DNA of 47,033 nt from a virus, in IMG/VR virus record IMGVR_UViG_3300032242_001587, positions 1-47,033 of that record; one strand, given 5' to 3'. Under the pieces are notes generated by a model. That model saw only the letters and a program-made list of their open reading frames with translations, searched no databases and was not told where the DNA came from. A program made the translations under genes and the position numbers. This document shows positions 11,725 to 42,481 of the stretch, one piece after another. Within the stretch, counting starts at the first letter, position 1. Each line of letters starts with the position of its first letter.

Positions 11725-11750
11725 ATGATAAACTTTTACTGTTTAGTACT

Positions 11751-19300: not shown

Positions 19301-22300
19301 TTAATACCAGACTTGTTGGTTGCTAGTGAATGAACTACCACTACCACCACTTTGTACGTTACTAGCAGTAATAAACACACCGTCTGTATATGAATATGTT
19401 GGGTATAATGCAAACGTAACACTAGAGCTAGGTGGATTTGTACCCACATCTGCTATTACTCTAGGTGTACTGAATACATTAGGCAAGAATACATTAGATA
19501 TCGGTTCTACTAAATTAATATTTGCTATATTTCCTACATATGTAACATACAAATTAGCACCACCTGTACTTGCATTTGCAGTTAATGTACTATTTCTTTG
19601 ATCCTGGAACATCCATTGTGTTAGTACAATATTACCACTTAGTGGTATTGGTGAGTTAATCAATGGTTCTGATAAGTTACTATTGAATCCTTCATTAATA
19701 AGTATATTAGCTGCACCTGTTTGTGTATTTGCCACTAAAGTACTATTTCTATAATCTTGTAACATCCACTGTGTAATTATAATATTTCCTATATTCGGCG
19801 TAATTGGTGTACTATATACTGCTTCAGATAAAGATACATTGCTAGTATTAGGATCAATAGAAAGTGCGATATTTATTGCGGGTGGATTATATCCAGTATC
19901 AAGTGTAACTCTATTGCCAATATTATTAGTATTCAATGCAGTAACACTAATTGAATATGTATTAGTTGTGACATTATCATTTGCAGTTACTAATAGATTT
20001 GCAAAGTTAACTATATTTGCAGTAATACCTAACGTACTAGCAGTATTCAATATTAATATACCATTGCTATTATATGTTCCGAATGGACTTAGTGTGCTAC
20101 TTGTAGGTGCAGTACCTGATGTAGTAAATGTATTAAAGTTAATACTAGATTCTGAATTAATAGTACTGGTTTGCAATGCTAACACACTTACCAAACTACT
20201 TGGAATAGTAAATGGGTTGTATACAGTAACAGATTGCGGGGCAGTTGTACCATTAGCAATAGGAGAGTTAGCAACACTAATATCACTATAACTGTATGGC
20301 AATAATAAACCAGTAACTGATTTACTTGTTGTGAATGGACTACTATCAGTAGGTGCTACTCCACCACCAGTTACAGTCATTTGTGACCTAGTATTACTGT
20401 TATCAGTTATTAATGTACCTTGTAATGTTAATAATGGAGTATCACTATTAAACGGTCCGTTAATTGTACTAACTGGTATAGCTGTACCTTGATTGACCAG
20501 AGTATATGAACCAGTAGCATCGTTTAATAAAGTACTAGTCTGCGCTGCTAACAATGCAGTTGGTGTTTGTGCACCAAACGGTGTTACAGTTGTTTGGAAT
20601 ACTGTAAAATTAACACCTATACCGCTCGACATTGAATTTATACTATTATCTGTATTAAGTGCTGATTGTGCTGTTAAGAATGAAGGTACATTATATCCAC
20701 CAAGTGGGCTAAATGATTTTTCTAATGCAACACCACCTGTAGCAAGGTTTGCCGGGGTCAATACATTATTATATATACTTGTATCTGTTGTCAAACTATT
20801 CTGTAATGCTAATAGTGCAGTAATACTAGTACCAAACAATCCATATACTTGTGCAGAGGTTACTGGTTGAGCACTATTTGTAATAGTTACACCATTAACA
20901 CTATTATCAACAAATGTAGCATTTTGTGCAGTTAATAACGAAACACCTGTATTGTTGAACAATCCAAATGCTACTGAGTTAAGAGCAGCACCGTTATTTG
21001 TAATAGTAGTACTATTAATACTATTATCAATAGATGTAGCATTTTGTGCAGTTAATAACGAAACACCTGTGTTATTAAATAATCCATATGCAATGCTTGT
21101 AATAGTAAAACCACTGCTATTAGTAATAGTATTATTAAATGTACTATTATCAACAAAGGTTGAACTTTGTGCAGTTAACAATATTACTGCTGTACCTGTA
21201 ATTGCACTGATATTTGTACCAGAACCTTGAGTAGCAGCTAATGGTCCTGTTGGTACAGTAAACGCACCTGTATATACAGCAACTCCTTTGGTTATTCTTA
21301 AATTAGACAATGATCCATATAAAGTACCTGTATTACTACCGGACGCACCTCGGTTAGTATCACTCATTATTTGTAAGCCGCTAGCACCATTAGGAGACCA
21401 TGTATAATTTGTTGCGTCTGCATTAGTTGCAGCTAATACTCCGTTAACGAACAATTTAGTAGAACCAGATGCACGTGATATCGCTACATGGTTCCATGAT
21501 CCATTTAAAATAGTTGTTGTCGCAGCATAAATCCATGCGTTTGATAGACCGAATGCACTCTGCCAAACCATGTTTCCTGCACTAAAATAAAGTGCCCAAT
21601 ATCCAGTGCCTTGAGTAGTTGAAGGTACTACACATCCACCTGTAATATCCGTAGTATTAATAAAAAACTCAACAGTAAAGTCACCGGTACCAAATGCATA
21701 ATTAGAACTAACCGGAACAGTAATGTCAGAACCTGAATTACCATTAAACGCATAAGCATAATATCCATTACTAGTTGTAGGTGCTGTGATTGCAGCAATA
21801 TTAGTACCAGTACTTTGTGTTGCTGATAATGGTCCTGTTGGTACCGTAAACGGGGTACCTGTGTATACTGCAACCCCTCTTGTTATTCTTAAATTAGAAA
21901 CAAATCCATTTATATAAGTGTTAAAATAAGCACCAACTACTAATGGTTGATTTGGATTAGATAAAGGTGTCGAGACAATTGCTACAGCGGTAGTACCTAC
22001 ACCGTTAACCCAAATTCTAATACCTGCTGAAGTTTTAGTCATTGCAATATGGTTCCATTGTCCAACTGTAACTGTTGCACTTGATGTAACTACTTGCTGT
22101 GCACCGGTATAATAATAGAATCTAACTGTACCGTCAGTTAACGGACCAAAAGCCCAATAATTACCGTTGTTGTTATATTGTGAATTTGATACCATACAAG
22201 GTATGTTGTTTGTACTAACTATACTCCATCCTGCTAATGTAGTAGGCATTACCCATGCTTCAATTGTGAAATCTGTAGTCCACCAATCGAAACTAGAGGT

Positions 22301-25300
22301 TACATATGGTATCGTTAGATATTGATTTGTACCATTAAACGAAGTAGCATAATAACCAACACTAGTTGTAGCCGCTGATATAGACACTATTGAACCGCCA
22401 CTACTTATACTAGTAGTTAACGGAGTTGTACTTGGAGTGAATGATGTAGTATATGCAGCGGTACCGTTGACTACACGCAAGTTAGATATAAAGCCATTCA
22501 ATGGATTACTACTAGCATAACCTGTACCAATATATGGACTACCAATTACATAATTATTACTATCTGTGTATGTACTACCTGACTGTGTGCCGTTTACATA
22601 CAATTTGGTACTACCAGAAGATTTAACTACTGCAATATGATACCAAGTAAATGTACTTACCGAACTACCCGTAATAGCAACTGTTCCACCTACTGCATAA
22701 TATATAGTACTACCGGTAATATAAATCTGCGGACTTACTGTAGTTGCACCAGTTCTATTGTCAAATAACGTACCTGCTGTAGCACTAGTATATAGATATA
22801 TCCAACCCTCAATTGTAAAGTTGTTTGTACCAAATGTGAATAATGCGTTACTTGGTGCATTGATATATTGTGTGCTACCACTGAAATATACACTACTACC
22901 ATTAGTTGGTGTAGGACTTAGATTTAATGAAACTAAAGACGTAGAATAATTACTAGATAATGAATTATTTTTACCACTACTATCAGTCGCTATATTTGAT
23001 GAATTTAATGCTAACAATTCTGTTTGTCCTGCACTAATTGCACCTATAGTAGAAGTTGCATACTGTGTTGCTTGTAATGGTGTTGTTGGTGGGGTAAAGT
23101 TTGCAGAATATATACCAACGCCTTTTACAATTCTAACTGTACTTATATAATTACCACTGCTAGGTCCATTGTTTAATGAATTATCAGTACCTATTACTGG
23201 TCTGTTAGTTGCTGCACTATATGTTTGTACATCTGTGGGTGCCTGACCAGTTTGTGTTCCGTTAATGAACAGTCTAGTGACTCCACCGGATCTAGCAACT
23301 GCAACATGATACCACGTACCAACAGTCATATTAATAGTAGAAGCAATAGCATAACCACCGGCAGTAAAAGTTATAATGCCATAAGATACAACTGCCATAC
23401 TAATTGCCATATACCCGGTGTAGTTACTAACTCCCGATGGTCTGAAATCTATTAGTGTACCTCCACCATAGTATGGATTTACCCAGAATTCAATGGTAAA
23501 GTCACCTGTTCCAAAACTAATACCGGTAGTAGTGTATGCATACAGATTTGTACTTAGTAGCATACCATATTGTTGAGTGCTAGTTCCATTGAATGGGCTT
23601 GGATATGCAGTTAACGCTGGGCTACCTGTAACAGTTAGTGTTAAGTTATTTGTACTTGCATCTGTTGTGGTTGCATTTTGTAATGCCATTAAACTAGCAG
23701 GAACATAACCTCCGCCACTTTGTGTATTAGTTAAAGGTGTTGTTTGAGGTATGAATGTAGAACTATATACTCCCACACCATATGTAAATCTCATATTGCT
23801 TATGAAGCCGTAGAATGGTGCAGACTTAGGTTGATATTGTATTCCTATACCACTAGTATTGACTACCCCGATAGATTGACTTAATGTAGTAGTAACCCCT
23901 ACAACACCGTTAACATAAATTATAAATCCATTTGCACTTGTACTTGTTCGTACTGCAGCGATATGAGTCCATGTTGTTAACGGAACTGCATTTGAAGTAG
24001 TAATTGTTGTAACTGCTGATGCTGAAGTTGCATATAAGAAATTGACTGTGCCGGTAGTAAAAGTTAAGTATATTTGCCATTGACCGACAGCATATGAACC
24101 TGATGAAGCATTTGTAAAATTATCTACAACCATTGATGATGCAGTGTATGATGTCATATATACCCAACACTCAACTGTAAACGGACTAGTACCAAATACA
24201 AATCCTGTACTAGGCAATCCTAAATACTGTGCAGTATTACCAGTAAACACATAATTATAATAACCAGTATTAGTTGATTGTGCGATTGCGAGGCTTGGAC
24301 TACCATTTGTATTTGCACTTTGTGTTATTGTTAGTGCAGTTGTACTTGGAGTAAAATTACTTATATAATTTGCCTGTCCTAATGTAACTCTTAAATTGCT
24401 TATGAAACCAGGGAAATAGTAAGGGTATGAAGCCTGACCGTTGTATCCAATATAGTAAGTAGTATTATCTACCCAAGTACTAGTGTTTGTATATGATCCT
24501 AAACTTACCCCGTTTACATAACATGTGAACGTTCCACTACTATTTCTCATGGCTGCAACATGGTACCATGTTGCTAAAGAGAAATTGTAACTAAATGCAT
24601 TAGTAATTGTAGTCGGAGTAGACCAAGCATATACTCCAAATCCTGATATAGCTGTAGCACTACCGGTGAAGTTTACTAAAAATCCTGCATTGTTTGAAGC
24701 GTTTATAGTAGACAATAATGTAATATTATATGCACCAGTGCTGCCTGGATAATTTGTAAAGTATACCCATGCTTCAATTGTAAACGCACTACCTGCTAAT
24801 ACATTATATGATGTCTTGTTGAAACTTAAGTATCCATTAGTACCATTTAAGTATGCACTATAGTAACCTGTTGTAGGTAATGAAGTCAATGCTTGCGTAC
24901 TTGCACTACTAGACTGTGTACTAGTTAGTGGGGTTGTTTGTGGTGTAAAGTTGTATACATATGCACCAGTACCATTTACTACACGTAAGTTACTGATATA
25001 GCCATTCAATGGGTAACTATTATCATAACCCTGACCAATGAATGGTGCACCGATTACATAACTATTACTATCTGTATAATTACTTCCTGACTTAACGCCG
25101 TTTATATATAATTTTGTTACGCCAGAAATTCTTACTACTGCAATATGATACCATGTTATTGTATTCAATGATGAACCAGTAATAACAATATTTCCTGCTA
25201 CTGCATAATATACAGTATTGTTGTTTATATAAACTTGCGGGCTGACAGTAGTTGCACCTGTTCTGCTATCATACAACGTGCCTGTTGTTGTAACACCACT

Positions 25301-28300: not shown

Positions 28301-31300
28301 TGTTATACTCAGTGTTGGACTACCTACCGCAGTCAATGTGAATGCGTTAGTACTTGCATCAGTAGTAGTTGCATTTTGAGCCACTAATAAACTACTTTGT
28401 GAAGTACTTACTGAATTCTGTGATTTAGTTAGTGGACTATTTTGTGGTGAGTATATACCGGTATAAACTGCCACACCATTAGTTAATCTAACATTAGATA
28501 TAAACCCGTTCAATGGTGATGTTTTATTGCTGGTTAATATACCAATACTGCTTGTTGCATTTATACCTATACTTGCACTTAATGTTGCAGTTTGAGCAAG
28601 CAATCCATGTACGTATATTGCAAATCCATTTGCACTAGTATTAGTTCTCACTGCCGCAACATGTGTCCAGCGTCCTACAGGTATACCAATTGTAGTTGTT
28701 ATAATAGTTTGTGCAACAGTACTAGTGGCATATGCAAAGACTACATAACCTGTTGTGGCAAGTGAATATAATGTCCATTGACCCGGAACAAATGTGGTGT
28801 TAACCCAATTATCAACAAATACTTGATTGGCTGATAATGAAAGAGCATATACCCAACATTCTACTGTGAATGGATTTGTACCGAATACATATTGTGATCC
28901 AGGCACTGATAAATATTGACCTGTGCTATTAGTAAAATAATTATCATAATAACCATCTGAGGTTGTTGGTGCTGATATACTATTAATATTAGTACCTGAA
29001 CTTTGTGTACTAGTCAAGTTAGTTGTAGGTGGAGTAAATGCTCCTGTATATACTATACTACCATTAACTATACGCATGTTACTTATATAACCATATAAAT
29101 AATTACTACCAGCACCCGTGTAGATAGTACCTATAATAGGTCTCGATGGTGTACCTAATAGGTATGTATTGGTATCAGTATATGTACCTTGTGCTACACC
29201 ATTCACATATAATGTAGTAATATTATTATTTCTTGTTAATGCACAATGATACCAAGTATATTGCAATAAAGTTGAACTAGCAATTTTAGAAGCACCTAAA
29301 GTATAATAAAATAATATATTATTAGACACATATATACTTGGATATGGAGAAGAATCTGATCCTCTAAAATCAATGAAATATAGAGGATTGCCTGATGCAG
29401 AGTAGTAAAAGTAAAATTCAATAGTGAAGTTATTATTACCTAATACAAATTGATATGAATTAGATGGTACGAAGATATATTGTGATCCATTAAAATAACC
29501 TGAATATGCATTAACTGCTATTGCAGCGCTTGGACTACCGTTAATATTGGCACTTTGTGTAGTAGATAAGGTTGATGTAGGTACAGTAAAATTACTTGTG
29601 TATAATGCTATACCGTTGACAAGTCTCACATTAGATATATATCCAGTAAAGGGGAATGTAGTACCGTTTTGTTCAGCACCAATACGCATTACACCCTGTG
29701 CATAAGCAATAACATTTGAACCAGTATATCCGGATTGTCCATTGATATAGATTGTTACTGTACCACCAGAAGCTGTATAACTTCTTACAAATGCTAAATG
29801 ATTCCACGTATTGAATGTTACGACGGTAGATGTTACCCCAGTTTGTCCATAACTAGCAGTAGGTGAATATCCATAAAATATAGTTCCACTTGAATTTATA
29901 CCAAACGGTGTAAGTCCAGTTGATGCATCATTACTAATAATAATTTGATATGTACCGCCGAATGTAATTGGATATATCCAACATTCTAGTGTAAATGTAC
30001 CTACAGTATAGTTATAGATACTAATACTACTAGGCACTGTTATTGAAGAGGTACCTGATGTTGCAGGGAAAGATTGAAAATAAGCACTACGTGCATATGC
30101 TACTTGGAATGCAGGATATACCTTTCTATTAATTGTTGGTGTACCTGTAACAGTCAATGTTAAATTATTTGAACTTGCATCGGTTGTAGTTGAGTTTTGT
30201 AATGCTAATAAAGCAGTATTAGTACCAGTTATTGCGTTAACGTTTGTTACTATACTTTGTGTATTAGTTAATGGATTAGTTATGCTTGGTGTGAAATTAC
30301 CTGTATAAACTGCTATATTTTTCAATACTCTTAGGTTACTAATATATCCATTCAATCCATATCCTGCAGTACTTGCACTAGTTCCTAAACTAGCCTGATA
30401 TGAGTACGGCAAACTAACAATAGTAGGTATATTTATTTGACTTCCAAGAGCTACACCATTTACGTATGTTGTAGTAATACCATTGTTTATTACATATGCA
30501 ATATGATACCATGTTGCAGCTGTCATGTTATGTTGATATCCAATGTACGATGTATTGCTTACTACTATGAATAGATTGCTTGAACCAATGACAAAATGTA
30601 CACCAGTTGATAATGAACCAGCAATACTAAACAATGTTGACACACCAGTAGTCCATGTGTTTGATGTAGGCATTACATATAAATAAACCCAGGCTTCAAC
30701 TGTTAGATTTAATAATCCACCATTCAGAATAGAACCGTATGTTGATGAATATGTTACAATTTGATAACCTGTACTACCACCACCGCTAAACCAAACTGCG
30801 CCACCATTAGTAACTAATGATGTTGATATTGCTGCAATGTTAGAACTTGAACTCTGTGTTGTATTGAAACCAGATGTAGGTAATGTGAAGTTTGTAGTAA
30901 CTGAATTTGTACCTGAATATAAACCTATACCATTAACTACACGGAAATTACTTAGATAACCAGTTATAAAACTAGTAGAAGGATTATCACCTATTCCACC
31001 GATATACCATGTGTTATTAGGACTATAGACAACATAATTACCTAAGGTAGATGATGAATCTAATACACCATTAATATATAGATATACTACTCCTGATCTA
31101 CGCACCACTGCAATATGTGTCCACTTACCATATATAATATTACTGTTACTTATTAATGCGTTAGTCGGGAATGATAATCCATTAAATGCAAGTTGATATT
31201 TTGTTGTCACACTAGAGTTGTGACCGGCGTACATTGCCAATGAACCTGTAGTAAAAGAATTATAATTTCCGAATAAGCAAGGATATGTAGTACTAGCAGA

Positions 31301-34300
31301 TCTACCACTTAAGAAATGCCAGAATTCAACAGTATAATCATTCAAACCAAAGTTCAATGTTGGTATTGGTGTTATTGTTACATAACTACTAGCAACACCA
31401 TTAAATGTCCAACTATACCCAGTTGGTGATGTGATTGATGTAGCATTATAAGCAACAACATTAGTTCTACTAGTTTGTGATAAAGTTAAGTTACTTGTTG
31501 GTGGGGTAAATACGCCCGTGTAAATACCAGTACCATTAATGATACGTAAATTACTTAACATACCACTATATGCTAATTGTGCTATTGAATATGTACCGTC
31601 ATTATTACTACTACCTATTGTATAATTACTATAATCCCAAGTACCAGTATTAGTAAAACTATTATTTGGACTTGTATCTAGTACTCCATCAATATATATT
31701 TTAACAATATTATTAATTCTTACAATTGCAATATGATGCCACTTACTATCGCATACTGGTGTTGTGCCTACGAATACAGGATTTGTGGTACTATACGAAT
31801 AACTGTAAATTTGTATGGTTTGTAAACTTGTAGGACCTGCATGACCTACACCAGGATGACTACACATGATATAATAATTATTATTAGTTGCCGTAGTATA
31901 TGAATTGTTTCTTCCTAATATCAATGCACCTGTACTAGCAGTTTGTGGTCCTGCCATCATAAAGAATTCAATAGTAAAGTCACCGCCTAAACTATTATAT
32001 AAATTAGTAGTATTAGTAATATATTGCGTACTACCATTAAATGCAATTGCATTAGTAGTACCACTGAATGGTGTTACATATGGATTAATTCTAGGCTCGC
32101 CGGTATATCCGGATATAGCATAGTTATTAATACTATTATCACGTGTTAGACTTGATTGACCAAGTAAGAACACTGGTGCTACACCAAACGGACTTACAGT
32201 AGGTTGATAACTTGCATACAATAATGAACCACTTGTAAATGTTGCATTATATATACTACTATCTTTAAAAGATGCACTAGCAACATCTCTAGTAGTTTGT
32301 GCTGTAAGAACTACAGGCAATTTCATCATTGTATATGGATTGGTAAATGTTGATAATACAACGCCTGTGTTTGTAACTGTTACATTGTTTGTACTATTAT
32401 CTTTGGTTAATGTTGACTGCAACAACAATAATGTTGTGTTTGTAATAGCCGTTAACGGTGCAGAATAAGGAGGTGTAGTATAAAGCGGTGTACCCGGATT
32501 ACCTAAGTATATTGAAGATGAACCATATACAAATCTTACGTTAGTAATATATCCTGCAAAGTAAGAACCCGTAATTGGTTGATAGCGTCCAACATTCAAT
32601 GTGTCGGTACCGCCGAATACTGTTACTTTACTTAATGTAGTAGCCTGTTTGTATCCGTTAACATACATGCTTATAATACCACTTGAACGAACAATTGCAA
32701 TATGTGTCCATGTGTTTATTTTAGCCACTGAAGGAGTTACGCTATCTATACTCGAAGCCGCACTATCTACTGCTAGTCTAATCACACCACTTGATATTAT
32801 CCATAGATGGAAAGAACCAGCACTCAATGGTGAGGTGAACGGGCCACCTGATGTAACAAATGATGGAGTACCTATAGCAGTTAATGTAAGATTATTTACA
32901 CTGGCATCAGTAGTAAGAGCAGATTGTAATGCTAATAATTGTGTACCACTAGTTCCTGCAACTCCTGCACTAATTGCAGATATGTTTATTCCTGAAAGTT
33001 GTGTTGCAGTTAATGGACTTGACGGTGGAATAAATGATGATGTATATACTGCTGTACCTTTTACAACTCTTAAGTTAGAAATATTTCCTGTAAAATATTT
33101 GTTATTGGCATCATCAGCACGACCTATATATTGTGTACCGCTAGCTGTATAGTTGGTATTATTCGCTACGGTACCACCTAAGTTACCGTTAACATAGATA
33201 TACATATTTCCACTATATCTTACGACTGCTATATGAGTATATGTACTTGTTGCAACTGAGATTGAACTGGCCACTGATCCAGTTGGTGAATAAAAATTAG
33301 GTATTAATGTGGCACCGTTTTGAAGATATACAGACCATGATGGTGTATTTCCAATAGCGCCAAATATAAATCTATCTGTAGTTGATGCACCGTTTGTGGC
33401 TGCTACTGTAGTATATACCCAACATTCAATTGTGAAGTCACCTGTACCAAAAACAAATCCGTTATTAGAAGGTACAGTTAGATATTGAGTTGTACCGTTT
33501 AGTGATACATATCCGTTAGTAGTAGAGGCAGTAGATCCTGTAGTACTGGTACTCAATAAATACTGTGATGCGGGCAATGATGTGGGATATGCCCACATTT
33601 CAATTGTAAAGTCGCCGGTACCTGCACTAGTAGGTTGTGTTAAAGATAGATATGAAGTTGAACCATTGAAGTATCCACTATTACCGTTAGTAGGTGTAGG
33701 ATAAGTAAAGAACGATGGACTAAACATCGGAGTATATAATGGAACACCAAATCCCATTATTGTATTATTGTATCCACTGTTATCAGTGAATGGTGAATTC
33801 TGGAATAGTAATAAACTAGTGCTTACTGAACTTGTTATTGCCGCAATATTTGTACCTGAGTTTTGTGTTATGGCTAATGGGCTTGACGGTACAGTAAATG
33901 CCCCGGTATATACTGCTATATTCTTAACAATACGTAAATTACTCATGTATCCTACGGCATATTGAGTTGGTCCACTTAATTGAGTTGCACCTATATATAA
34001 TGGAGATCCTACACTTGTTAAACCAAATTGCGATCCAAAACTTACAGTTCCGTAACTGGCACCATTAACATATAATGTTATTGTACCACTTGCTCTTACT
34101 AGTGCAATATGTACCCACTCATTAGCTAAAATAGCAGTACTTGCTGTAAAGTTAGTAGAACCATTGTAGTATACTGTTATAATACCTGCAGTTGTAACTT
34201 GAATATTCCAATATCCTAATGCAGTGGTTGCAGCTGTATACTGTCCTAGTAATGTTGAAATTGCAGAAAGACTAGTTGGATAGTAATATAATTCAATAGT

Positions 34301-37300
34301 AAAATCATTTACACCCATATCAGTTACTGAACTAGGTAACTTCATATAGTCATTAGCACCATTAAAGTAAACGCTACTACCTAAACTTGGTATTGAACTA
34401 TTCAATGCTATAGTACTTGAACTGCTAGTTTGTGTACTTGTTAATGCCGCAATAGGAGTGAAGAAACTGTTTGAATATACACCGGTACCATTAACGACAC
34501 GTAAATTACTAATATAACCATTTAATGGATTACTACTATTATATCCAGTTCCAATATATGGTGCGCCAATTACATAGTTATTAGTATCAGTATAGTTATT
34601 ACCTACTTGAATTCCATTTACATATAATTTTGTTATATTTGAAATACGAACCACTGCAATATGATACCACGTTGTAGTGCTTAATGGTAATATAGTTGTA
34701 GAATTGATGACACTAACACCTGCTACTGCATAGTTAACAATATTTGATTGAATATAAACTTGTGGGCTTAGTGTAGTTAAACCTGTTCTACTATCATATA
34801 ATGTACCACTACTAGTACCGCTGGCTAGATATATCCAACCTTCAATTGTAAAATCATTTGAAGAACCAAATGTAAAAACATTGTTGCTAGGTGCTTGTAT
34901 ATATTGACTACTACCAGTAAAGAATACACTACGTCCATTACTACTAGCAAACGGAGCATATGCCATATTTGCAGGACTAGTTACAGGTGTACCTGAGACT
35001 GTCATTTGATAATTATTACCATTACCAGTGAGACTTGCATCATATATTGGTGCAGTAGTCTGGAACATTAATAACTGTGTATATGTAAATATCACTGGAG
35101 TTTGGCTAATAATTACCCCATTCCAATTTGTAATTGGTAATAATGATGTGCCATTATCTATTATTGATGAACTTTGACAAGTTAACAATACAGTTTGACC
35201 TGTTGTTATTGCATTAATATTTGTACCACTAGATTGTGTAGCAGTTAGCGGACCTGACGGTACCGCAAAGTTAGCGGTATAAACGCCTACACCTTTAGTA
35301 ATTCTTACATTAGAAATAGATCCGTTAAAAAATGCTGGATTGATGTTAGATATATAACCAATAGCCATTGCTGCTGTACTAGCAGTAAAGCTAGTATTAT
35401 TAGTTACTGCACTTCCTTGTACCACACCATTCAAGTATACATTTATAGTTGTACCTATTCTTACCAATGCATAATGATACCATACATTAGTAGATATTGT
35501 TACTGAAATTCCCTTAATTGATGCAGAGTATGTTTGAAAATTTATAACGCCTGCACCATTATACCATATAGCCCACCCATTACTACTTGCATCACCGTTT
35601 CCTACTAAACTACCGGCAACTCCTGGATTATTAGTATTAAACCAGAATTCAACTGTAAAGTCAGTGCCCGCAGGGAATGCAAAGTTTGAAGTAGAGAATG
35701 TAGTTAGATATTGACTAGATCCATTAAATGAATTATAATATGTACTATTGGCACTTGGAATTGCTTGAATATTTGTACCACTAGTTTGTGATAATCCTAA
35801 TGCATTAGTTGGCACAGTAAAGTTACCTGTATATACTGCAATACCCTTTACAATACGTAGATTAGAAAGATAACCAGTTAATTTGTTAGTTGCAGTGACA
35901 TTTGCACCAATCAAAATGCCATTTGTTGAATTATATACTGCGGCAATAGTTGCATCAGTACCTTTAACACCATTGACATAACAAGAAATTGTACTTCCAA
36001 ATTTAACACCAGCGATATGATACCATTGATTTGCGATAGGAACTGTTGTGTTATATGAGCGTTGTAACCCACCAACAGCCCCTGTAGTAGAAGCTGCAAA
36101 TTCCCAACGACTTAGGTCATATCGATAATATAAGAACCAATCTCCAGCGTCTGCGCTAGTATGCCACTGAGATATTATCTCCATTGAACTAGTTGCTAGA
36201 CTAGCAACAGAAGGGAAATATATCCATGTTTCAACTGTAAAATCACTAATGTACGGGTTTAATGTTCCACTATAGGATAGAATCAAATATGTATTACCAT
36301 CAAAATAAGTACTATAACCAGTTGTTGTAGGTAGATAAGGTACGACTGTTGAACTGACAGATGGACTACCTGTAGCAGTTAATGTTAAATTATTTGAACT
36401 GGCATCACTAGTTGTTGAATTTTGTAATGCTAATAAACTTGTTACTGTACCTGTGATAGTATTACTATTATTAATTATATTTTGTGTATTAGTTAATGGA
36501 CTAGTACTTGGAATAAAGTTTCCGGTGTATACTGCATAACCTTTGATAATACGCACATTGCTTATATAACCCAGGAAAGTATTAGTATAGCTACCAGCTG
36601 ATACAAATTGGCTACCAATAGACGGTGTAGTTGTAGTACCTGTAGATCCAAAATATTGTTGGCTTACAGGTATGAATATGGTACATGCTGATAGACCATT
36701 CAAATATGTTGTAAGTATATTTCCTGTACGCACTACTGCAACATGATACCATTGATAATTGTTAATAGTAAGTGTTGATGAATAACTATATAATATAGTT
36801 GTCGTAAATCCAGTATATGTTTCAAAGTTTAATGTACCACTTGATCCTATTGCAGATTTTCCTAAATATAAACGCCAAGCAAAATCGGATGTACTAGTAG
36901 AAGCCGCACTCACTATAGTTTGTGTTGAGGTTGCCGCCGTACTATAAAACCAGGCTTCAATAGTAAAGTCATATGCAGCCAACTCAAATCTACCTATATT
37001 AGAGTTAGGCGTACTAATATAACCTATACTAATATTGCCACCAAAATAGCAACTACCGCTATAGTTGAAACCGTTAGGATTATTTATTGACGGATATGTT
37101 GTAACACTGTTAACCGCCAATGTGTTTGTACTACTAGGAGATGTTAATACATATGGCGTTACGCTAGGCGTGAAGTTACCTATATATATTGCAGTACCTA
37201 TCGTAAATCTAAAATTACTTACATAACCGTTAGTATATGCGGCATTAACTCCTCTGCCTATAACAGGACTAATTTGACCTCTTAGGCCATAATCAATAGT

Positions 37301-40300
37301 ATTATTAGCAGTTGTTACTGTATCTTGTATACCGTTTACCCAATGTTTCAATGTACCATTTTGTCTAGTTATTGCAACATGATACCATGTGTTGATTGCA
37401 AGTAAGTTAGCGGTGGAAGTTAAATATGCACCTGCATTTCCTACAGAGAAACTTAATTGCCCACTACTAATAGCCCAAAGCCAGCCGGCGTCACTAGTAC
37501 TAGCTCTGGTATCTAAAAGATATGCGATCACCGATGAATTAGTCAAAAATACCCAACACTCGATTGTAAAGTCTCCGGGTAATTGAGTAGACGTTACATA
37601 ACCGGTCGCAATTTGTAATGAATCGTTTGCACCTGCCCCGTTAAATCCAATACTATTTCCATTAGTAACAGTAGGTATATAAGTTGAGAATGGGCTTGTT
37701 AGTGGTGCTAGTATTAAACCAGTTGCGCCGGCTCCTTTTGTTATAGTGGCGTTGTTAAAACTATTGTCAAGTGTTGCACTACTTTGTAAGCCTAAGAATA
37801 CTGTGTTAGGTATTGCAGTTAGTGGACTAGTTGGTACAGTAAATTTACTTGTATAAACAGCAGTTCCATATACCAATCTTAAGTTAGTGATATAACCAGG
37901 GAAATATTGTGCAGCAGCACTTGCTTGTCTGCCAATATAAACAGTACCTAATGTTGCAGCTTGCCATACAGTTGTTTTTGTGACGGTTGCATCACGAACA
38001 CCGTTAATATATATTGCTATCAAATTATTAGTATATACTACTGCAAGGTGTGTCCATACATATAGTGGAAATACATTATTAGATTGTATTGCTGCTGTTG
38101 CATTATTATCACTCCATACTGTTACTGCACGATTTGCTTCAATTGCAACACCAAAATAACCTGTAGATGTTGCATTATTGTTAATTATCCAACCTCTGGT
38201 TGTTGGTGCAACACCTAATAATACCCATGCTTCAACTGTTACATCATATGGTGTTAAGAATGGTGTATTGGTAACCATTGAATAGGTACCACCTGTTGTA
38301 ATAGTAAAATTATATAATGAATTATCTTTAATTGGACTTACATTTTGATGTAATAGTAAAGAAACTTGTGCTGGATTAGCACCTTGACTATTTATTGTTA
38401 ATGGTACTGTACTTGGAGTAAATGTTGCTGAGTATAATCCTATACCATTAACAATGCGTGTGTTTGACATATATCCAAAAAAGAATCTTCCATATCCAGA
38501 TTGTGGGCTATATGCAATACCAAGATTATTAGAATTTGTTAAATTTTGTCCTGCAGTTTGTGTATCAAGTAATACACCATTTACAAATAGTCTAGAAGTT
38601 CCACTTATACGAGTAATAGCAACATGATACCATGTGTTTAATAATATAGGATTAGTAGTACGGCCAAGGCTAGTTTGAGTATCATTAACATAGTTATTCA
38701 AACCTATACCTGCGTTACCTGCAGTAACGTTATTGTTAGAGAATATGATTAAACTCCAACCGTTTTGTGGTCCGCTAGAACTTAACATTGATAGTAAACA
38801 TTGATTTCTAAGAGAGTCAGTCATATTACTATAACCGTTATCATTCATAAAGAACCAAGTTTCAATAGTGAAGTCATTTGTACCTATATTGAATGCTGTA
38901 CCAAAACCTGTAGCTGAACTAACAATTAAATTGTTACCTGGATTATAGTAAACACTATAATAAGAACTTGCTGGTTCAGGGAATGTTAAGAAGTCATTGG
39001 AGTTATTGAAGTATACACTACTACCATTATTAACAACATATGAACTAGCATTATCAATACTTGCAACACTTGATGTTGCACTTTGCGTAGGATTAAATGG
39101 TGTTGTACTTGGTGTGAATCCAACATCATAATTAACTGTATACAATGCTTTACCATATACTACACGTGCATTACTAATGTAACCATTAAATGCAGTAGTT
39201 GCACTATTTTGTGAGTTTGCAATGGTGATATAACTTGCAGACTGTGCTGTGTATAATAAATTATTTACACCGTTGACAGTACCGGTATATACTCCGTTAA
39301 AGTAAAAATTAACATTAGTTCCTACTTTAGTTAATGCTAAATGCATCCACTGACCTTGAATAATATTTGCAGTAAATGCAGTGCTTGTCGTAGTGCCTGT
39401 TGGAACACCTGATGCTGTTTGGAAATATAAACCACTGCTTGTTATACTGAAACTCCATTCTAAACCAGTAGTAGCTCCAGTACCTTTTTGTATAATATAC
39501 CAACCAGGTGCTGCCGGTGGAGTTCCATTCAAATAGACCCATGCCTCAGCAGTAAAGTTATTTTGACCTTGACCCAATGATAGTGCAGGACTATATGCAC
39601 TTGATACTTGTTGATATGCAAGTGCAGTACTTAAGAATTGTGTACTTCCAGAACCATATATAGTAAAAGGACTTACTGTAGTAGATAATACCGGTGAACC
39701 ACTAGTTGTTGCAGTTATATTATTTGTACTTGCATCTGCTGTTATAGTAGTCTGTAGTGCTAATAATTGTGTATTTGTTATTGCAACTAAAGGAGATTTA
39801 GGAACATTTAATGTTATTTGACTTGGATCATATACTGCATATCCGTTAACAACACGAACATTAGACATATAACCATTAAGATAGTAACCTGCTGTACTAA
39901 TACCACCTATTTTTAGTGGACCAGTAACAGTCCAATTGGTACCATCTGTTCCGTTAGCAATACGAGTGCCATTTAAGAATATAGATGTTTGATTTGCAAA
40001 TAATCCTGCACGTACTGCAACGACATGATTCCATGCACCAACCGTTAATGATGTTGCTGAACCTAGAATGTTTAATCCTGCTCTTGCTGAGATAACAATA
40101 CCATTACCTACACCATTTGCATTTTGATCCCATATACCCCATCCACCGGTTGTATCATTAAACACAAGAATAGGACCATTAGTAGAACCATATGTACTTG
40201 TAGCAATATTAGGATATACCCAGAACTCAACTGTGTATGGATTGCCTTTGAAAGCAAATCCTGAATTAGATCCAAAGTTAATTTCTGTTGATCCAGGTAA

Positions 40301-42451
40301 ACTTACGCTATTACTATTTGGTTGTACTAAACTTGATGTGCCGGTATATGGATTGAATAACACAAATGACGGTGATCCTGATGCAGTTATAGTAGAATTT
40401 AGAGAACTTGCATCAGATGTTATATTAGTCTGAAGTGCTAAAAATGTAGTATTACCTGCAACTGTAAACGGAACGCCAGATGGAATAAAGTTTTGTGTAT
40501 ATTGTGCAGTACCTTTTACAATTCTAAAATTACTAATTAAACCGTTTAACGAACAGTTGGCTGCATCACCTTGTGAGCCACCTACATATGCAGTTGTTAT
40601 ACCAAACAAATTAGTAGAAGAAGTAATTGTAGTTGCATCTGCTTTACCATTTACATATAAAGTAATAATAGTACCAACACGAACTAATGCTATATGAACC
40701 CATGAGTTATATATGACACTTGTTGAGAAATTTGTTTGACTACCGCCACCAACAAAAAGATTATATTTTGTTGTGTCAACTGAATTATGTCCTGCTGTAA
40801 ATAAAACTCTATTTGGTTGTCCTAATGCGCCTGCATTATCAAATATAGTAGGATATAAAGTTATTCTTGAATATAAATATGTCCAGCATTCTAATGTGAA
40901 ATCACCTGCACCTAAGTCTCCTGAGGTACCTGCTCCTGCAGGAAAACTTACCCATTGGCTAGATGCACCTTTTAGATATAAACTACCTTGAGTTGTAGGT
41001 CCGCCTGTAATAGCACGAATATTTGTGCTGGCACTTTGTGTTAATCCTAATGGACTTGTTGGTACTGTAAAGTTACCGGTATATATTACATAACCCTTAA
41101 CCATTCTAAAGTTACTGATGTTACCAACTGTCCATTCTGTATAACCAATAGCCCCGCCAATTTGTAATGGACCAGCAACATCTGCTCCTAATAATATATT
41201 GAGAATATATACTCTGGAACCATTAACATAAATTGTAATATTGTTGCCATCATATGTATATGCTACATGACTCCATTGATTGAGCGGTACAGCATAACCT
41301 GATGGGTATAAGGTACCCTGATAAAAACCTATAATACCGGTTGTAGCAGCCAAGTAACCTTGATATGAAGTAGTAGTACTACTTGCTACACGTTTTGCAA
41401 ATAGTGTGTTTTGTGCTGTATAACTAGTAGGGTATACCCATAATTCAACTGTCCAAGAATAATTAGCAACACTCACTGGTGTAGAGTTTGCATATTGTAA
41501 TGAACCATTAATAAAGTTTTCACTATAGCCACTTGTAAAAGAAGGTGCTGAACTAGCAATAGTTGATTGTCCACTAGTTAATGATACATTACTATTGAAT
41601 TTAATACTTGAATATGTTGCATCATTTGCAGTTGGTGTTAAACTTATAGCAACAATATTACTTGGTGCACTAAATGTATATGATGTTGTACTAGTACTAA
41701 ATGTAGGTGATAGTGTTACATTTGCATTTGCTTGTAGTATAGGTGTGAATTGTCTGAAACTAACACTACCAGCAGAAGTGATAGTAAGATTGTTTACACT
41801 ACCGTCAACCTTAAAATTAATAGTATTACATGCTAATAAACTTGTATTTGCAATAGCAGTTAATTGTGTGCTTGGTACATTGAAGTTTGCAGTATATAAA
41901 GGTGTTGCAGCACCAACCATGAATCTTAAATTAGATAGATAGAAATTTCCACCGTTATTACCTAAACCGTTATTATCATTCAACCCGTTAATAACAAATG
42001 TAGTTCCGGTTGCAACTGCAGCGGTATTATACGTGACAGTAGCATCTTGTACACCGTTTACAAATATTCTTAAAACACCTGCACTTGTTCTAGATACTGC
42101 AACATGGTACCAATTTCCAAGTGCGTATGTATTTGTAGTAGTTAGTATTACCGGGTTACTAGAACCATTACCTTGCATTAAACTAAACTTGTTAGCAACT
42201 TGTCCACCATATGTAATAGCGACACTATTTCCAAATGCACTACCTGAACCTATACCAAAGAAATATCCAGTACCTGCAACTGGATATACCCAACATTCAA
42301 AGTTCCAAACTACCGTAGTTGATGATACATTAAATATCGCATTTGAACCAGTAAGATAACTACCGGTTGCTGGAAAATACGTACTATAATATGTATTTGT
42401 GCTATACGTAGCTAGTGTTAGACTTGATAGGCCTGCGTCTGATGTTGCCAT
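19301..42451 (-). CDS. giant LamG-repeat protein, 7,716 aa (putative fibre/adhesin)
   Basis: One continuous frame of 23,151 bases, ATG at 42451 with AGGGG upstream. It has 32 LamG (Laminin_G_3-like, concanavalin-type) cores, each with DFTIE-x-W-[VI]-Y, W-[YTNV]-H-[IV]-A-x-x-R, [YF]-x-NG and ISN-x-R...Y...NF...P. Between many modules stands LLALQ-x(n)-TDAS-x-NN-x-T, the first hairpin of the next module. Cadherin-like beta-sandwich pieces lie at residues 1-12, about 241-304 and about 7,461-7,509. The last 200 residues duplicate TQWM-[LF]-QD-x-RNSTL-x-AN. Composition is Ser/Thr/Asn/Gly/Tyr-rich with few charged residues. Position among fibre-like genes suggests a virion-borne adhesin of about 0.8 MDa (estimated); no experiment supports this. 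Confidence 0.95.
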   Translation of the reverse strand: MATSDAGLSSLTLATYSTNTYYSTYFPATGSYLTGSNAIFNVSSTTVVWNFECWVYPVAGTGYFFGIGSGSAFGNSVAITYGGQVANKFSLMQGNGSSNPVILTTTNTYALGNWYHVAVSRTSAGVLRIFVNGVQDATVTYNTAAVATGTTFVINGLNDNNGLGNNGGNFYLSNLRFMVGAATPLYTANFNVPSTQLTAIANTSLLACNTINFKVDGSVNNLTITSAGSVSFRQFTPILQANANVTLSPTFSTSTTSYTFSAPSNIVAISLTPTANDATYSSIKFNSNVSLTSGQSTIASSAPSFTSGYSENFINGSLQYANSTPVSVANYSWTVELWVYPTSYTAQNTLFAKRVASSTTTSYQGYLAATTGIIGFYQGTLYPSGYAVPLNQWSHVAYTYDGNNITIYVNGSRVYILNILLGADVAGPLQIGGAIGYTEWTVGNISNFRMVKGYVIYTGNFTVPTSPLGLTQSASTNIRAITGGPTTQGSLYLKGASSQWVSFPAGAGTSGDLGAGDFTLECWTYLYSRITLYPTIFDNAGALGQPNRVLFTAGHNSVDTTKYNLFVGGGSQTNFSTSVIYNSWVHIALVRVGTIITLYVNGKADATTITSSTNLFGITTAYVGGSQGDAANCSLNGLISNFRIVKGTAQYTQNFIPSGVPFTVAGNTTFLALQTNITSDASSLNSTITASGSPSFVLFNPYTGTSSLVQPNSNSVSLPGSTEINFGSNSGFAFKGNPYTVEFWVYPNIATSTYGSTNGPILVFNDTTGGWGIWDQNANGVGNGIVISARAGLNILGSATSLTVGAWNHVVAVRAGLFANQTSIFLNGTRIANGTDGTNWTVTGPLKIGGISTAGYYLNGYMSNVRVVNGYAVYDPSQITLNVPKSPLVAITNTQLLALQTTITADASTNNITATTSGSPVLSTTVSPFTIYGSGSTQFLSTALAYQQVSSAYSPALSLGQGQNNFTAEAWVYLNGTPPAAPGWYIIQKGTGATTGLEWSFSITSSGLYFQTASGVPTGTTTSTAFTANIIQGQWMHLALTKVGTNVNFYFNGVYTGTVNGVNNLLYTAQSASYITIANSQNSATTAFNGYISNARVVYGKALYTVNYDVGFTPSTTPFNPTQSATSSVASIDNASSYVVNNGSSVYFNNSNDFLTFPEPASSYYSVYYNPGNNLIVSSATGFGTAFNIGTNDFTIETWFFMNDNGYSNMTDSLRNQCLLSMLSSSGPQNGWSLIIFSNNNVTAGNAGIGLNNYVNDTQTSLGRTTNPILLNTWYHVAITRISGTSRLFVNGVLLDTQTAGQNLTNSNNLGIAYSPQSGYGRFFFGYMSNTRIVNGIGLYSATFTPSTVPLTINSQGANPAQVSLLLHQNVSPIKDNSLYNFTITTGGTYSMVTNTPFLTPYDVTVEAWVLLGVAPTTRGWIINNNATSTGYFGVAIEANRAVTVWSDNNATAAIQSNNVFPLYVWTHLAVVYTNNLIAIYINGVRDATVTKTTVWQAATLGTVYIGRQASAAAQYFPGYITNLRLVYGTAVYTSKFTVPTSPLTAIPNTVFLGLQSSATLDNSFNNATITKGAGATGLILAPLTSPFSTYIPTVTNGNSIGFNGAGANDSLQIATGYVTSTQLPGDFTIECWVFLTNSSVIAYLLDTRASTSDAGWLWAISSGQLSFSVGNAGAYLTSTANLLAINTWYHVAITRQNGTLKHWVNGIQDTVTTANNTIDYGLRGQISPVIGRGVNAAYTNGYVSNFRFTIGTAIYIGNFTPSVTPYVLTSPSSTNTLAVNSVTTYPSINNPNGFNYSGSCYFGGNISIGYISTPNSNIGRFELAAYDFTIEAWFYSTAATSTQTIVSAASTSTSDFAWRLYLGKSAIGSSGTLNFETYTGFTTTILYSYSSTLTINNYQWYHVAVVRTGNILTTYLNGLSACTIFIPVSQQYFGSTGTTTTPSIGSQFVSAGSYTNTFLGYISNVRIIKGYAVYTGNFIPSTSPLTNTQNIINNSNTITGTVTSLLALQNSTTSDASSNNLTLTATGSPSVSSTVVPYLPTTTGYSTYFDGNTYLILSYSGTLNPYISDFTVETWIYFPSVASLATSSMEIISQWHTSADAGDWFLYYRYDLSRWEFAASTTGAVGGLQRSYNTTVPIANQWYHIAGVKFGSTISCYVNGVKGTDATIAAVYNSTNGILIGANVTATNKLTGYLSNLRIVKGIAVYTGNFTVPTNALGLSQTSGTNIQAIPSANSTYYNSFNGSSQYLTTFSTSNFAFPAGTDFTVEFWFNTNNPGVAGSLVGNGDASSNGWAIWYNGAGVINFQTYSASIKGISVTISTNVWYHYALVRIGTTINVYLNGVVQGSAVTNNTSFTASTAAMAIGYISNINPAFFNGSISNVRITKGVGVYTANFAVPSGPLTATQSSGTNINAITTGQTVLLTCQSSSIIDNGTSLLPITNWNGVIISQTPVIFTYTQLLMFQTTAPIYDASLTGNGNNYQMTVSGTPVTSPANMAYAPFASSNGRSVFFTGSSQYIQAPSNNVFTFGSSNDFTIEGWIYLASGTSSGTLYDSRTGLTTLSPQVYIQSNIVNYAVAGVSVINSTTILPLSTTTWYHIAVVRISNITKLYVNGIQVGNNYTDTNNYVIGAPYIGTGYNSSNPLNGYISNLRVVNGTGVYSNSFFTPIAALTSTQTSSSSTIALNSSIPSLGSSVYFNGANDYMKLPSSVTDMGVNDFTIELYYYPTSLSAISTLLGQYTAATTALGYWNIQVTTAGIITVYYNGSTNFTASTAILANEWVHIALVRASGTITLYVNGASYGTVSFGSQFGLTSVGSPLYIGATQLSGPTQYAVGYMSNLRIVKNIAVYTGAFTVPSSPLAITQNSGTNIAAITSSVSTSLLLFQNSPFTDNSGYNNTIMGFGVPLYTPMFSPSFFTYPTPTNGNSGYFNGSTSYLSLTQPTSAGTGDFTIEMWAYPTSLPASQYLLSTSTTGSTASTTNGYVSLNGTTQYLTVPSNNGFVFGTGDFTIECWVYTTVAATNGASTTDRFIFGAIGNTPSWSVYLQNGATLIPNFYSPTGSVASSISVATSTYTHIAVVRYSGNMYIYVNGNLGGTVANNTNYTASGTQYIGRADDANNKYFTGNISNLRVVKGTAVYTSSFIPPSSPLTATQLSGINISAISAGVAGTSGTQLLALQSALTTDASVNNLTLTAIGTPSFVTSGGPFTSPLSAGSFHLWIISSGVIRLAVDSAASSIDSVTPSVAKINTWTHIAIVRSSGIISMYVNGYKQATTLSKVTVFGGTDTLNVGRYQPITGSYFAGYITNVRFVYGSSSIYLGNPGTPLYTTPPYSAPLTAITNTTLLLLQSTLTKDNSTNNVTVTNTGVVLSTFTNPYTMMKLPVVLTAQTTRDVASASFKDSSIYNATFTSGSLLYASYQPTVSPFGVAPVFLLGQSSLTRDNSINNYAISGYTGEPRINPYVTPFSGTTNAIAFNGSTQYITNTTNLYNSLGGDFTIEFFMMAGPQTASTGALILGRNNSYTTATNNNYYIMCSHPGVGHAGPTSLQTIQIYSYSYSTTNPVFVGTTPVCDSKWHHIAIVRINNIVKIYIDGVLDTSPNNSFTNTGTWDYSNYTIGSSNNDGTYSIAQLAYSGMLSNLRIINGTGIYTGVFTPPTSNLTLSQTSRTNVVAYNATSITSPTGYSWTFNGVASSYVTITPIPTLNFGLNDYTVEFWHFLSGRSASTTYPCLFGNYNSFTTGSLAMYAGHNSSVTTKYQLAFNGLSFPTNALISNSNIIYGKWTHIAVVRRSGVVYLYINGVLDSSSTLGNYVVYSPNNTWYIGGIGDNPSTSFITGYLSNFRVVNGIGLYSGTNSVTTNFTLPTSGFNTTQSSSSNIAAISTSLVTNGGAVWFSGGGSTGYQIVTYSSTYGSILNGGLLNLTVEAWVYLYVMPTSNTWTTGVSTLFSIAGSLSTGVHFVIGSSNLFIVVSNTSYIGYQHNMTAATWYHIAYVINNGITTTYVNGVALGSQINIPTIVSLPYSYQASLGTSASTAGYGLNGYISNLRVLKNIAVYTGNFTPSITNPLTNTQSIVTNVNAITGTNTALLALQNSTTTDASSNNLTLTVTGTPTINRKVYPAFQVAYARSAYFQSFPATSGTSSITVPSSISIYNYTVGTFTLECWIYPITFGGTYQIIISNDASTGLTPFGINSSGTIFYGYSPTASYGQTGVTSTVVTFNTWNHLAFVRSYTASGGTVTIYINGQSGYTGSNVIAYAQGVMRIGAEQNGTTFPFTGYISNVRLVNGIALYTSNFTVPTSTLSTTQSANINGSPSAAIAVNAYSGYFNGSQYIFVPSNSYQFVLGNNNFTIEFYFYYSASGNPLYFIDFRGSDSSPYPSIYVSNNILFYYTLGASKIASSTLLQYTWYHCALTRNNNITTLYVNGVAQGTYTDTNTYLLGTPSRPIIGTIYTGAGSNYLYGYISNMRIVNGSIVYTGAFTPPTTNLTSTQSSGTNINSISAPTTSDGYYDNYFTNSTGQYLSVPGSQYVFGTNPFTVECWVYALSLSANQVFVDNWVNTTFVPGQWTLYSLATTGYVVFAYATSTVAQTIITTTIGIPVGRWTHVAAVRTNTSANGFAIYVHGLLAQTATLSASIGINATSSIGILTSNKTSPLNGFISNVRLTNGVAVYTGIYSPQNSPLTKSQNSVSTSQSSLLVAQNATTTDASTNAFTLTAVGSPTLSITSPFVVPNGSSVFYNASTISYLNPSYGYTMTTGDFTVEVYAYCTNSSNFNYILSTNNANSDTGFYLGFATAGIFSYGGLTTNTSLDRNTSAALFYVWTHIAYVRINGVESLYFNGVLVSTSTRLLNFTSNSYMYIGYNPQVGGYFGGYLTNLRVVRGLGIYTGNFTTPTAPLTLTQSSSTNISAITGTVPTNGSSVTFNGSSYLSTAGSSQLAFNNSQYTIEFWVYFNALSVQQCFYDLRGATTTNIASFMQLLSNNTITYNVGTTVIITSSVTFSSPFWYHVAVVGTNQNTNGVTMYVNGVNVGTGTDNNTHSQYGLRIGQTGAGTNTFNGYISNFRIVVGTAVYASNFAVPSAPLTAITNTKILVLQNSTTTDASLVNYTLTATGTVTLSTTVSPFIYVPQVLMFQNATTNDASVNNFILNISSGSLTLYPLITPFAVSNGYSVYFTGSSQYLTVPSNSSLQFGTQDFTIEGWIYILNGNTGTLYDGRTSLTSTSPVIYINASTLYYAVGSTVVITGVTLSNSTWYHIAVARVSNNTSLYINGVQTGIIYSDNTVLNTVSTPAIGTGYSGTYPLNGYITNVRIVKNLAVYTNNFVVPTVPLTATVGGNIAAIPSLTTTNGYYACSFNSAQSQILSLPANAAFAFGTGAWTVEAWVYLVTLQESFVFDTRNSAATNGIGLRIDPTGTLYYSGSANNVLTTTAITTGSWYHVAWSYNGTTLTGYINGVSGGSATPGFNLTLNSPSIGRINYSVSGFLNGFISNLRVVKGIAVYTGNFTVPTGPLAATQSSGTNISAITGTATSLLTCQSSTIIDNSTFSATNIITNGNSVNTIIAIGLFGNNSGTTLLTSQSSTIVDNSAFPTTITNVGSTLTFPVINLFGVNNGVTQLLTLQNNTLVDNSYNGFTLGNSGSTTLVPANGLFNTGITQLLALQSSLTTDIGYYGVTLTPTGFTNLSTVSPFVATNGSSVSFNGSGNYLSITSNNVFTLSTNDFTIEGWIYLSGVTTTGTLYDSRTGATTVSPQVYINNNTVYYAVAGNIVITGSSLNTITWYHIAVVRISGVTKLYINGVKSGSNYTDSNSYVIGAPFIGQGYDNSYPLNGYISNLRVVNGTGAYVYNFTPQTTPLTSTQSSSASTQALTSLPTTGYYSAYLNGTNGYLSFNKTSYNVLAGSAFTIEAWVYFTNYPGSTGAYNITLLSTINASNNAGFLVNFTGSATAISGFGVYAWSTPTTITNAFSYNFSLATWYHVAAMRNSSGTFTCYVNGVSLGSYTNTSTWVDNTTYYIGYNGQASYPYYFPGFISNLRVTLGQANYISNFTPSTTALTITQSANTNGSPSLAIAQSTNTGYYNYVFTGNTAQYLGLPSTGFVFGTSPFTVECWVYMTSYTASSMVVDNFTNASSGSYAVGQWQIYLTFTTGTVNFLYATSASAVTTITTSNAVPLTTWTHIAAVRTSTSANGFIIYVNGVVGVTTTLSQSIGVVNTSGIGIQYQPKSAPFYGFISNMRFTYGVGVYSSTFIPQTTPLTNTQSGGGYVPASLMALQNATTTDASTNNLTLTVTGSPALTAYPSPFNGTSTQQYGMLLSTNLYAYTTTGISFGTGDFTIEFWVNPYYGGGTLIDFRPSGVSNYTGYMAISMAVVSYGIITFTAGGYAIASTINMTVGTWYHVAVARSGGVTRLFINGTQTGQAPTDVQTYSAATNRPVIGTDNSLNNGPSSGNYISTVRIVKGVGIYSANFTPPTTPLQATQYATSTIGAISAGQTELLALNSSNIATDSSGKNNSLSSNYSTSLVSLNLSPTPTNGSSVYFSGSTQYINAPSNALFTFGTNNFTIEGWIYLYTSATAGTLFDNRTGATTVSPQIYITGSTIYYAVGGTVAITGSSVSTFTWYHIAVVKSSGSTKLYVNGTQSGSTYTDSNNYVIGSPYIGTGYASSNPLNGFISNLRVVNGTAAYTTSFTPSTTPLTTSISSGGSIVSISAATTSVGYYATSFNGTNQYLTIPYVTSSFDWWTTDFTIEAWVMPTTLAGWSIVSTNNIPCMVSNSQYNNNGNYWAFGPLTDGTVRFYYYTGAQQVVTSSATVTVGQWNHIAMTKTSAGIRIWVNGVGTTAVAIVSTPLSNPNQPLVVGAYFNTYINGFVSNLRITRGVAVYTGTPFTVPTGPLSATQSTGTNIAAITAPTTSNGYYAYAFNGNSGSDITVPVSSNYAFGTGDFTVEFFINTTDITGGCVVPSTTQGTGYWALYFSAGNMVWQSAFGLSNAWIYAATTTILNGSWNHVAISRASGSTKLFVNGVLAATNADATNYTWSPNGASGLQIMSDTNRGASGSNTGTLYGSLSNLRITKGVAVYTGAFTVPTGPLAATQGSGTNISAITGTAVILLTAQSSTFVDNSTFNNTITNSSGFTITSIAYGLFNNTGVSLLTAQNATSIDNSINSTTITNNGAALNSVAFGLFNNTGVSLLTAQNATFVDNSVNGVTITNSAQPVTSAQVYGLFGTSITALLALQNSLTTDTSIYNNVLTPANLATGGVALEKSFSPLGGYNVPSFLTAQSALNTDNSINSMSSGIGVNFTVFQTTVTPFGAQTPTALLAAQTSTLLNDATGSYTLVNQGTAIPVSTINGPFNSDTPLLTLQGTLITDNSNTRSQMTVTGGGVAPTDSSPFTTSKSVTGLLLPYSYSDISVANSPIANGTTAPQSVTVYNPFTIPSSLVSVLALQTSTINSESSINFNTFTTSGTAPTSSTLSPFGTYNSNGILILNTASTLGITANIVNFANLLVTANDNVTTNTYSISVTALNTNNIGNRVTLDTGYNPPAINIALSIDPNTSNVSLSEAVYSTPITPNIGNIIITQWMLQDYRNSTLVANTQTGAANILINEGFNSNLSEPLINSPIPLSGNIVLTQWMFQDQRNSTLTANASTGGANLYVTYVGNIANINLVEPISNVFLPNVFSTPRVIADVGTNPPSSSVTFALYPTYSYTDGVFITASNVQSGGSGSSFTSNQQVWY
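19925..20070 (-). other. last part of a split cadherin-like beta-sandwich domain
   Basis: Encodes NGILILNTASTLGI and then LLVTANDNVTTNTYSISVTA. The second piece matches the typical final strands (V-T-A-x-D-x-x-T-x-T-Y-x-I-x-V-T) of the cadherin-like domain. No first or middle strands of such a domain precede it locally. Confidence 0.55.
20065..21205 (-). repeat. C-terminal run of about nine truncated module starts (~40 aa each)
   Basis: After the last full LamG module come about nine units of the LL-[TA]-x-Q-x(5)-D-x-S type, each about 120 bases, with no LamG core following. At DNA level 20916-20950 and 21036-21070 are 35 bases identical, exactly 120 bases apart, showing recent tandem duplication. 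A late unit (residues with GLLLPYSYSDIS) is diverged. Confidence 0.8.
25435..25905 (-). repeat. run of four truncated module starts
   Basis: Four consecutive units read LLTCQSSTIIDNST, LLTSQSSTIVDNSA, LLTLQNNTLVDNSY and LLALQSSLTTDIGY. Only the last leads into a full LamG core. Unit length is about 38-41 aa. Confidence 0.8.
32060..32430 (-). repeat. run of three truncated module starts
   Basis: Three units, LLLLQSTLTKDNST, VVLTAQTTRDVASASFKDSS and FLLGQSSLTRDNSI, stand in a row between two full LamG modules. The middle one is irregular. Confidence 0.7.
32834..33523 (-). repeat. LamG module inserted inside another LamG module
   Basis: The outer module starts FNGSTSYLSLTQPTS and reaches YLLSTSTTGSTAS. 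Then a whole second module begins (TTNGYVSLNGTTQYL) and runs about 230 aa to GGPFT. The outer module then resumes with SAGSFHLWIISSGVIRL and its own TWTHIAIVR and MYVNG motifs. One copy is therefore nested in the other. Confidence 0.8.
41540..41730 (-). other. middle part of a split cadherin-like beta-sandwich domain
   Basis: Encodes NVTLSPTFSTSTTSYTFSAP and later TPTANDATYSSIKFN, matching the centre of cadherin-like beta-sandwich (PF12733-type) domains. Its expected first strand (GLSSLTLA) is at the protein's N-terminus, before LamG module 1. Its expected last strands are at 19925-20070. Confidence 0.6.
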
Positions 42452-42472
42452 GTTACCCCTAAATGTAAGTTA

Positions 42473-42480: not shown

Positions 42481-42481
42481 T

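Follow-up and report, generated by a model that had tools for sequence, protein, structure and literature searches.

Giant open reading frame

The question raised by this locus is whether a single 23-kb open reading frame (ORF) in a phage genome is a genuine gene and, if it is, what a protein of such size may do. In the window (the whole stretch of DNA analysed, 47,033 nucleotides of IMG/VR record IMGVR_UViG_3300032242_001587), the ORF listing and the translation place the giant ORF at 19301..42451 on the minus strand, with an ATG start and 7,716 codons without an internal stop. At its composition, a frame of this length would stay open by chance with a probability of about 10^-250, and the single unbroken frame announced in the preliminary description is thus borne out. 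The product (7,716 aa, 815 kDa) is rich in S, T, N and G and has a K+R content of 2.4 %; over its whole length, trypsin would release only 63 peptides of 7-30 aa. The gene is among the longest phage genes known and, its own orthologue excepted, was the longest single ORF in the analysis. It illustrates the length to which a modular protein of the surface type can grow in a phage.

As the gene is repetitive and was recovered in one metagenomic contig, an artefact of assembly or frame was considered, be it a collapsed or expanded repeat or a chimera. However, the longest exact repeat in the gene is 37 nt and the best module pair shares about 74 % DNA identity over about 500 bp, so that collapse or expansion of the array during short-read assembly, the flaw envisaged in the preliminary description, is very unlikely. 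In addition, a syntenic orthologue of 8,153 aa with an almost unchanged module register is present in a separate metagenome contig, from which we conclude that the gene and its frame are real, and the substitution pattern by codon position is that of a translated gene. An artefact is scarcely credible on these grounds and was rejected.

LamG module array

The following features were delineated in the array and beyond its C-terminal end:

21293..42361, minus strand: array of 32 LamG (PF13385) modules of about 140 aa each, found with PF13385 and a module profile built from the window
33527..33667, minus strand: module 14 (aa 2929-2975), N-terminal half of a split LamG module, by module profile; common to the orthologue
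33059..33499, minus strand: module 15, complete LamG module nested inside 14/16; the most conserved module, 91 % identical to the orthologue
32531..32824, minus strand: module 16 (aa ~3210-3307), C-terminal half of the LamG module split by module 15, by module profile
20252..21199, minus strand: tandem half-repeats of about 40 aa (LLtaQnat..DNS...itN) without a LamG body; the unit is found before many LamG modules
19304..19918, minus strand: C-terminal tail without a known family; its end (TYSYTDGV..A.NVQSG.....F..N.Q.W) is kept in the orthologue

PF13385 matched the giant ORF 33 times; 32 of these matches pass the curated cut-off unaided, and the remaining one is partial. Two of the matches, numbers 14 and 16, complement each other, scoring 35 and 68 bits separately and 109 bits when joined (window-built module profile). 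Judged by these scores, they are the two halves of one module, between which the complete module 15 has been inserted. Counted in this way, the 33 matches represent 32 modules, in agreement with the number given originally.

The spacers between modules are mostly about 42-50 or 80-90 aa long, and a unit of about 40 residues (LL.LQ....D.S.NN.T.T) precedes many of the modules. The tandem half-repeats near the C-terminus have one copy more in the window than in the orthologue. For the C-terminal tail, distant relatives were not found in GenBank phages, IMG/VR or Pfam, and one very weak match was obtained among the PHROGs.

Identity between modules averages 27.5 % (range 16-70 %), and clear relationships are confined to two small subfamilies (12/25/27/31 and 22/29). 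The most constant positions are scaffold motifs (DFTIE.W, W.H.A, YVNG, IG and GYISN.R). Outside these motifs there is wide variation, strands being slightly less variable than loops (mean entropy 2.16 vs 2.42 bits).

Predicted fold of the modules

When two modules were modelled with AF2 from 28 paralogue-rich sequences, a model of moderate quality was obtained, which is all-beta with a pLDDT of 71 and poor spacers. Its best matches among solved structures are laminin LG pairs (LG4-5), CBM40 sialic-acid-binding modules and pentraxins (Z about 16-17). According to this model, the LamG modules are of the laminin-G jelly-roll (concanavalin A-like) fold. The AF2 model of the nested module (pLDDT 44.6) was uninformative.

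The LamG/ConA fold also occurs in domains that do not bind a ligand, and the fold alone shows no function. The link between LamG folds and sugar or protein binding, on which the preliminary description relied, agrees with a predicted fold common to LG, CBM40 and pentraxin domains (AF2 model and structure matches). In phages, LamG has been proposed, not demonstrated, to be a host-recognition domain (PMC7504290, PMC8541153), and papers on phages describe it as a domain that may bind receptors or be accessory.

Comparison with the orthologue

The search for homologues in related phages, suggested at the outset, led to the orthologue mentioned above. It is located at 113949-138410 of a phage contig of 367,104 b from another metagenome (IMGVR_UViG_3300023174_002543, G003), in which the gene order on both sides of the giant gene is the same as in the window. 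G003 also carries a gp23-type major capsid gene (PF07068, E = 1.9e-99) about 50 kb upstream of the fibre-gene block and on the same strand. The phage is T4-type, gp23 having been seen in the orthologous contig, beyond the window's reach.

The two proteins are 55 % identical overall and align module for module from 1 to 29, with 35 HMM matches to LamG in G003 vs 33 in the window, and the nested insertion 14-[15]-16 is common to both. One stretch is particularly well kept:

30935..34912, minus strand: conserved core of modules 12-18, with 62-91 % identity to the orthologue by alignment

Overall dN was 0.39 and dS 1.07, giving a dN/dS of about 0.37, and modules 12-17 gave about 0.13-0.27; all of these dN/dS values are rough as synonymous sites are near saturation. 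This pattern indicates that the giant gene is under purifying selection. The strong selection proposed earlier is uneven along the gene: it is seen in the highly constrained modules 12-17, and other modules were exchanged or have diverged beyond recognition. When the conserved core was sought in bacterial genomes, none was found.

Modules 1, 4, 10, 11, 26 and 30, although in register, are only 30-38 % identical between the two proteins, which is the level of random module pairs (34 ± 6 %). The spacers flanking such dissimilar modules are 45-82 % identical (53-82 % around modules 10 and 26, for example). Module 32 of the window and module 3 of the orthologue are reciprocal best matches. Furthermore, module 31 of the window shares 73 % amino acid identity with a module of contig G005 (IMGVR_UViG_3300006115_001165) vs 74 % with its counterpart in the orthologue; G005 represents a third, more distant phage, and its phrog_5838 protein is only about 63 % identical. 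In its simplest reading, this looks like mosaic exchange and relocation of modules between phages. Rapid divergence without exchange could account for some of the dissimilar in-register modules.

The window and the orthologue form a natural pair in which the retention, swapping, insertion and loss of modules can be followed. Should exchanges of modules track host range, one could read from the array how uncultured jumbo phages have adapted to their hosts.

Gene neighbourhood and late-promoter-like signal

The giant gene is flanked by the following features:

42452..42486, minus strand: late-promoter-like CATAAATA, overlapping the upstream stop codon, and an AGGGG ribosome-binding site
42482..43900, minus strand: upstream gene, 472 aa, without a known family, 53 % identical to its orthologue in G003
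45747..47027, minus strand: gene of the virion structural protein phrog_5838, cut short at its 5' end where the window stops, 86 % identical to its orthologue in G003
16487..18814, minus strand: nrdA, flanking the giant gene at its other end, 92 % identical to its orthologue in G003

The three genes between phrog_5838 and the giant gene are 53-68 % identical to those of G003. The modules had been described as lying among fibre-type genes; this holds for the upstream side, where the genes are of fibre or structural type, but not for the downstream side, which is occupied by nrdA/nrdB.

Before the giant gene stands CATAAATA, which we take to be similar to a T4 late promoter. It is followed by 30 non-coding bases before the start codon, 28 of which are identical in G003. 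ATAAATA (7-mer core, either strand) was also considered as a promoter signal for the whole window and was rejected in that capacity. It occurs there 14 times vs 41.5 expected under a first-order Markov model, about three times more rarely, perhaps through avoidance of the promoter signal. Owing to this rarity, only conserved copies before genes were used.

Several other gene groups were observed in the window. Nine tRNA genes are clustered at 335-1393. Four successive plus-strand genes without a PHROG match are located at 2245-6325, some of which look by eye to be of SGNH-hydrolase type. Three adjoining radical-SAM genes (6325-9677) lie beside a methyltransferase gene (9678-10517), a density unusual for a phage. 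A 744-aa protein without a known family (11751-14263; 87 % identity to an IMG/VR contig) adjoins a PAAR-like spike gene.

Probable role of the giant protein

The PHROGs matched by LamG segments of the protein bear the names baseplate wedge subunit or virion structural protein, which may reflect other parts of those long proteins. Together with the promoter-like signal and with the phrog_5838 and fibre-type genes upstream, these names make a late virion adhesin the most likely role. From the sequence evidence, the giant protein is probably an adhesin of the fibre type, expressed late and associated with the virion of an aquatic T4-type jumbo phage. We infer both the location in the virion (tail or fibre) and the binding of a ligand.

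A non-virion protein acting in or on the infected cell, such as an intracellular scaffold or a surface-exclusion protein, might be expected beside nrdA and nrdB, and a signal peptide is not evident in the first residues, which go straight into a LamG module. However, the upstream genes are structural or fibre-like and include the homologue of the cyanophage virion protein phrog_5838, the promoter signal before the giant gene is of the late type, and in T4-type cyanophages the LamG families carry structural annotations. A role of this kind is quite improbable.

The protein might also belong to the virion but not bind a receptor. It could then be a decoration, or a whisker, with which the phage adheres non-specifically to mucus, particles or extracellular polysaccharide, or it could space the tail. 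The high divergence of the modules, the S/T/N/G-rich composition with few charges and the scattering of related multi-LamG proteins across structural gene blocks are consistent with this, as is the lack of a recognised anchor or tip: in the giant protein, no dedicated virion-anchoring domain was recognised. On the other hand, the apparent swaps of single modules at fixed positions and the constrained core are explained more easily by specific binding, and we consider a non-specific decoration unlikely.

For the preferred adhesin, the protein would be produced late and attached to the tail or baseplate, and its 32 LamG modules, alike in scaffold but otherwise variable in sequence, would be displayed there. 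The modules may bind glycans or proteins exposed on the surface of the host, or of particles associated with it, and many weak contacts could provide avidity and reach. Recombination would swap modules between phages and so shift specificity while the backbone stays; module turnover, which appears to have occurred here, is expected of a surface-binding protein. The multivalent host-surface adhesin of the preliminary description is still the best explanation, given the late structural block, the purifying selection and the LG-type fold, but its estimate of more than 100 nm would hold only for a linear, fully extended rod.

Possible cadherin-like ends

Segments near both ends of the protein may belong to a cadherin-like beta-sandwich (PF12733):

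41552..41743, minus strand: N-terminal part of the domain (PF12733 positions 3-51; aa 237-300), sub-threshold profile match
42404..42442, minus strand: possible first strand of the domain (aa 4-16, LSSLTLA), adding only about 1 bit
19919..20068, minus strand: putative C-terminal strands of the domain (aa 7462-7511), 7,160 residues from the N-terminal part

The N-terminal part alone scored 23.9 bits against the PF12733 cut-off of 24.2 bits, and when it was joined to aa 7462-7511, a segment chosen by eye, the score rose to 30.4 bits and the match became almost complete (profile positions 3-87). In the orthologue, the join raised the score from 22.9 to 30.7 bits. Control joins with ten segments of the giant protein gave 19.2-24.3 bits and a shuffled segment 18.7 bits. 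The joins were made for scoring only; because the C-terminal segment was picked by eye beforehand, a split cadherin-like domain is suggested, not proven. The cadherin-like segment was not found when sought in other phages.

The two ends may thus form one cadherin-like domain, with the array as a loop anchored at the base. Such a loop would have about half the reach of a rod, and for an adhesin this large the architecture would be unusual. As a tentative reading of the sequence, the whole LamG array may have been inserted in one cadherin-like domain, its ends closing into a giant loop, and may have grown by module-in-module insertion (15 in 14/16) and been remodelled by exchange at fixed positions.

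Comparison with known phage proteins

In the relevant part of Al-Shayeb et al. (2020; PMC7162821), predicted proteins of huge phages reach 7,694 aa and some are tentatively structural; that part gives no domain analysis for them, and the products of the window (7,716 aa) and the orthologue (8,153 aa) are slightly longer. Among T4-type phages, the giant structural protein of cyanophage S-CAM8 (YP_008125616, 6,167 aa; phrog_701, profile 6,136) also contains LamG, but it has only three LamG modules and its gene lies upstream of baseplate wedge genes. In the parts of the window protein scanned, which include little of aa 2001-7049, the best match to phrog_701 is to its LamG stretch. The product of gene 179 of Synechococcus phage ACG-2014h/S-MbCM7 (1,383 aa, 'virion structural protein', three LamG modules) likewise adjoins a phrog_5838 homologue; however, it is far shorter and is encoded on the opposite flank of that homologue. 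Tandem LamG modules are also present in uncultured Caudovirales proteins (BFVD A0A6J5T0D4 and A0A6J7WRK3) and in the putative adhesin S5VMI9 of Pseudomonas phage PaBG, which were among the top structural matches and are shorter.

Contigs G005 and G059 (IMGVR_UViG_3300047560_002167) carry a related phrog_5838 gene and giant modular ORFs as well, but these consist mainly of RCC1 propeller repeats interleaved with LamG. In G005 (1-11871, L113), an ORF of at least 3,957 aa, with RCC1 propeller repeats alternating with LamG, runs off the contig. In G059 (15474-45304), two overlapping ORFs in different frames (L124 and L125; 4,821 and 5,133 codons) contain more than 150 RCC1 matches and a few LamG; the second opens in mid-repeat, and the two may be one gene of about 9,900 codons split by a frame change (an assembly indel or a programmed shift).

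Multi-LamG proteins and phage structural proteins of more than 6,000 aa are therefore already known, and the gene of the window adds an extreme new variant to them. It is set apart by its almost purely LamG composition, the nested insertion, the apparent in-register exchange of modules and, possibly, its joined ends.
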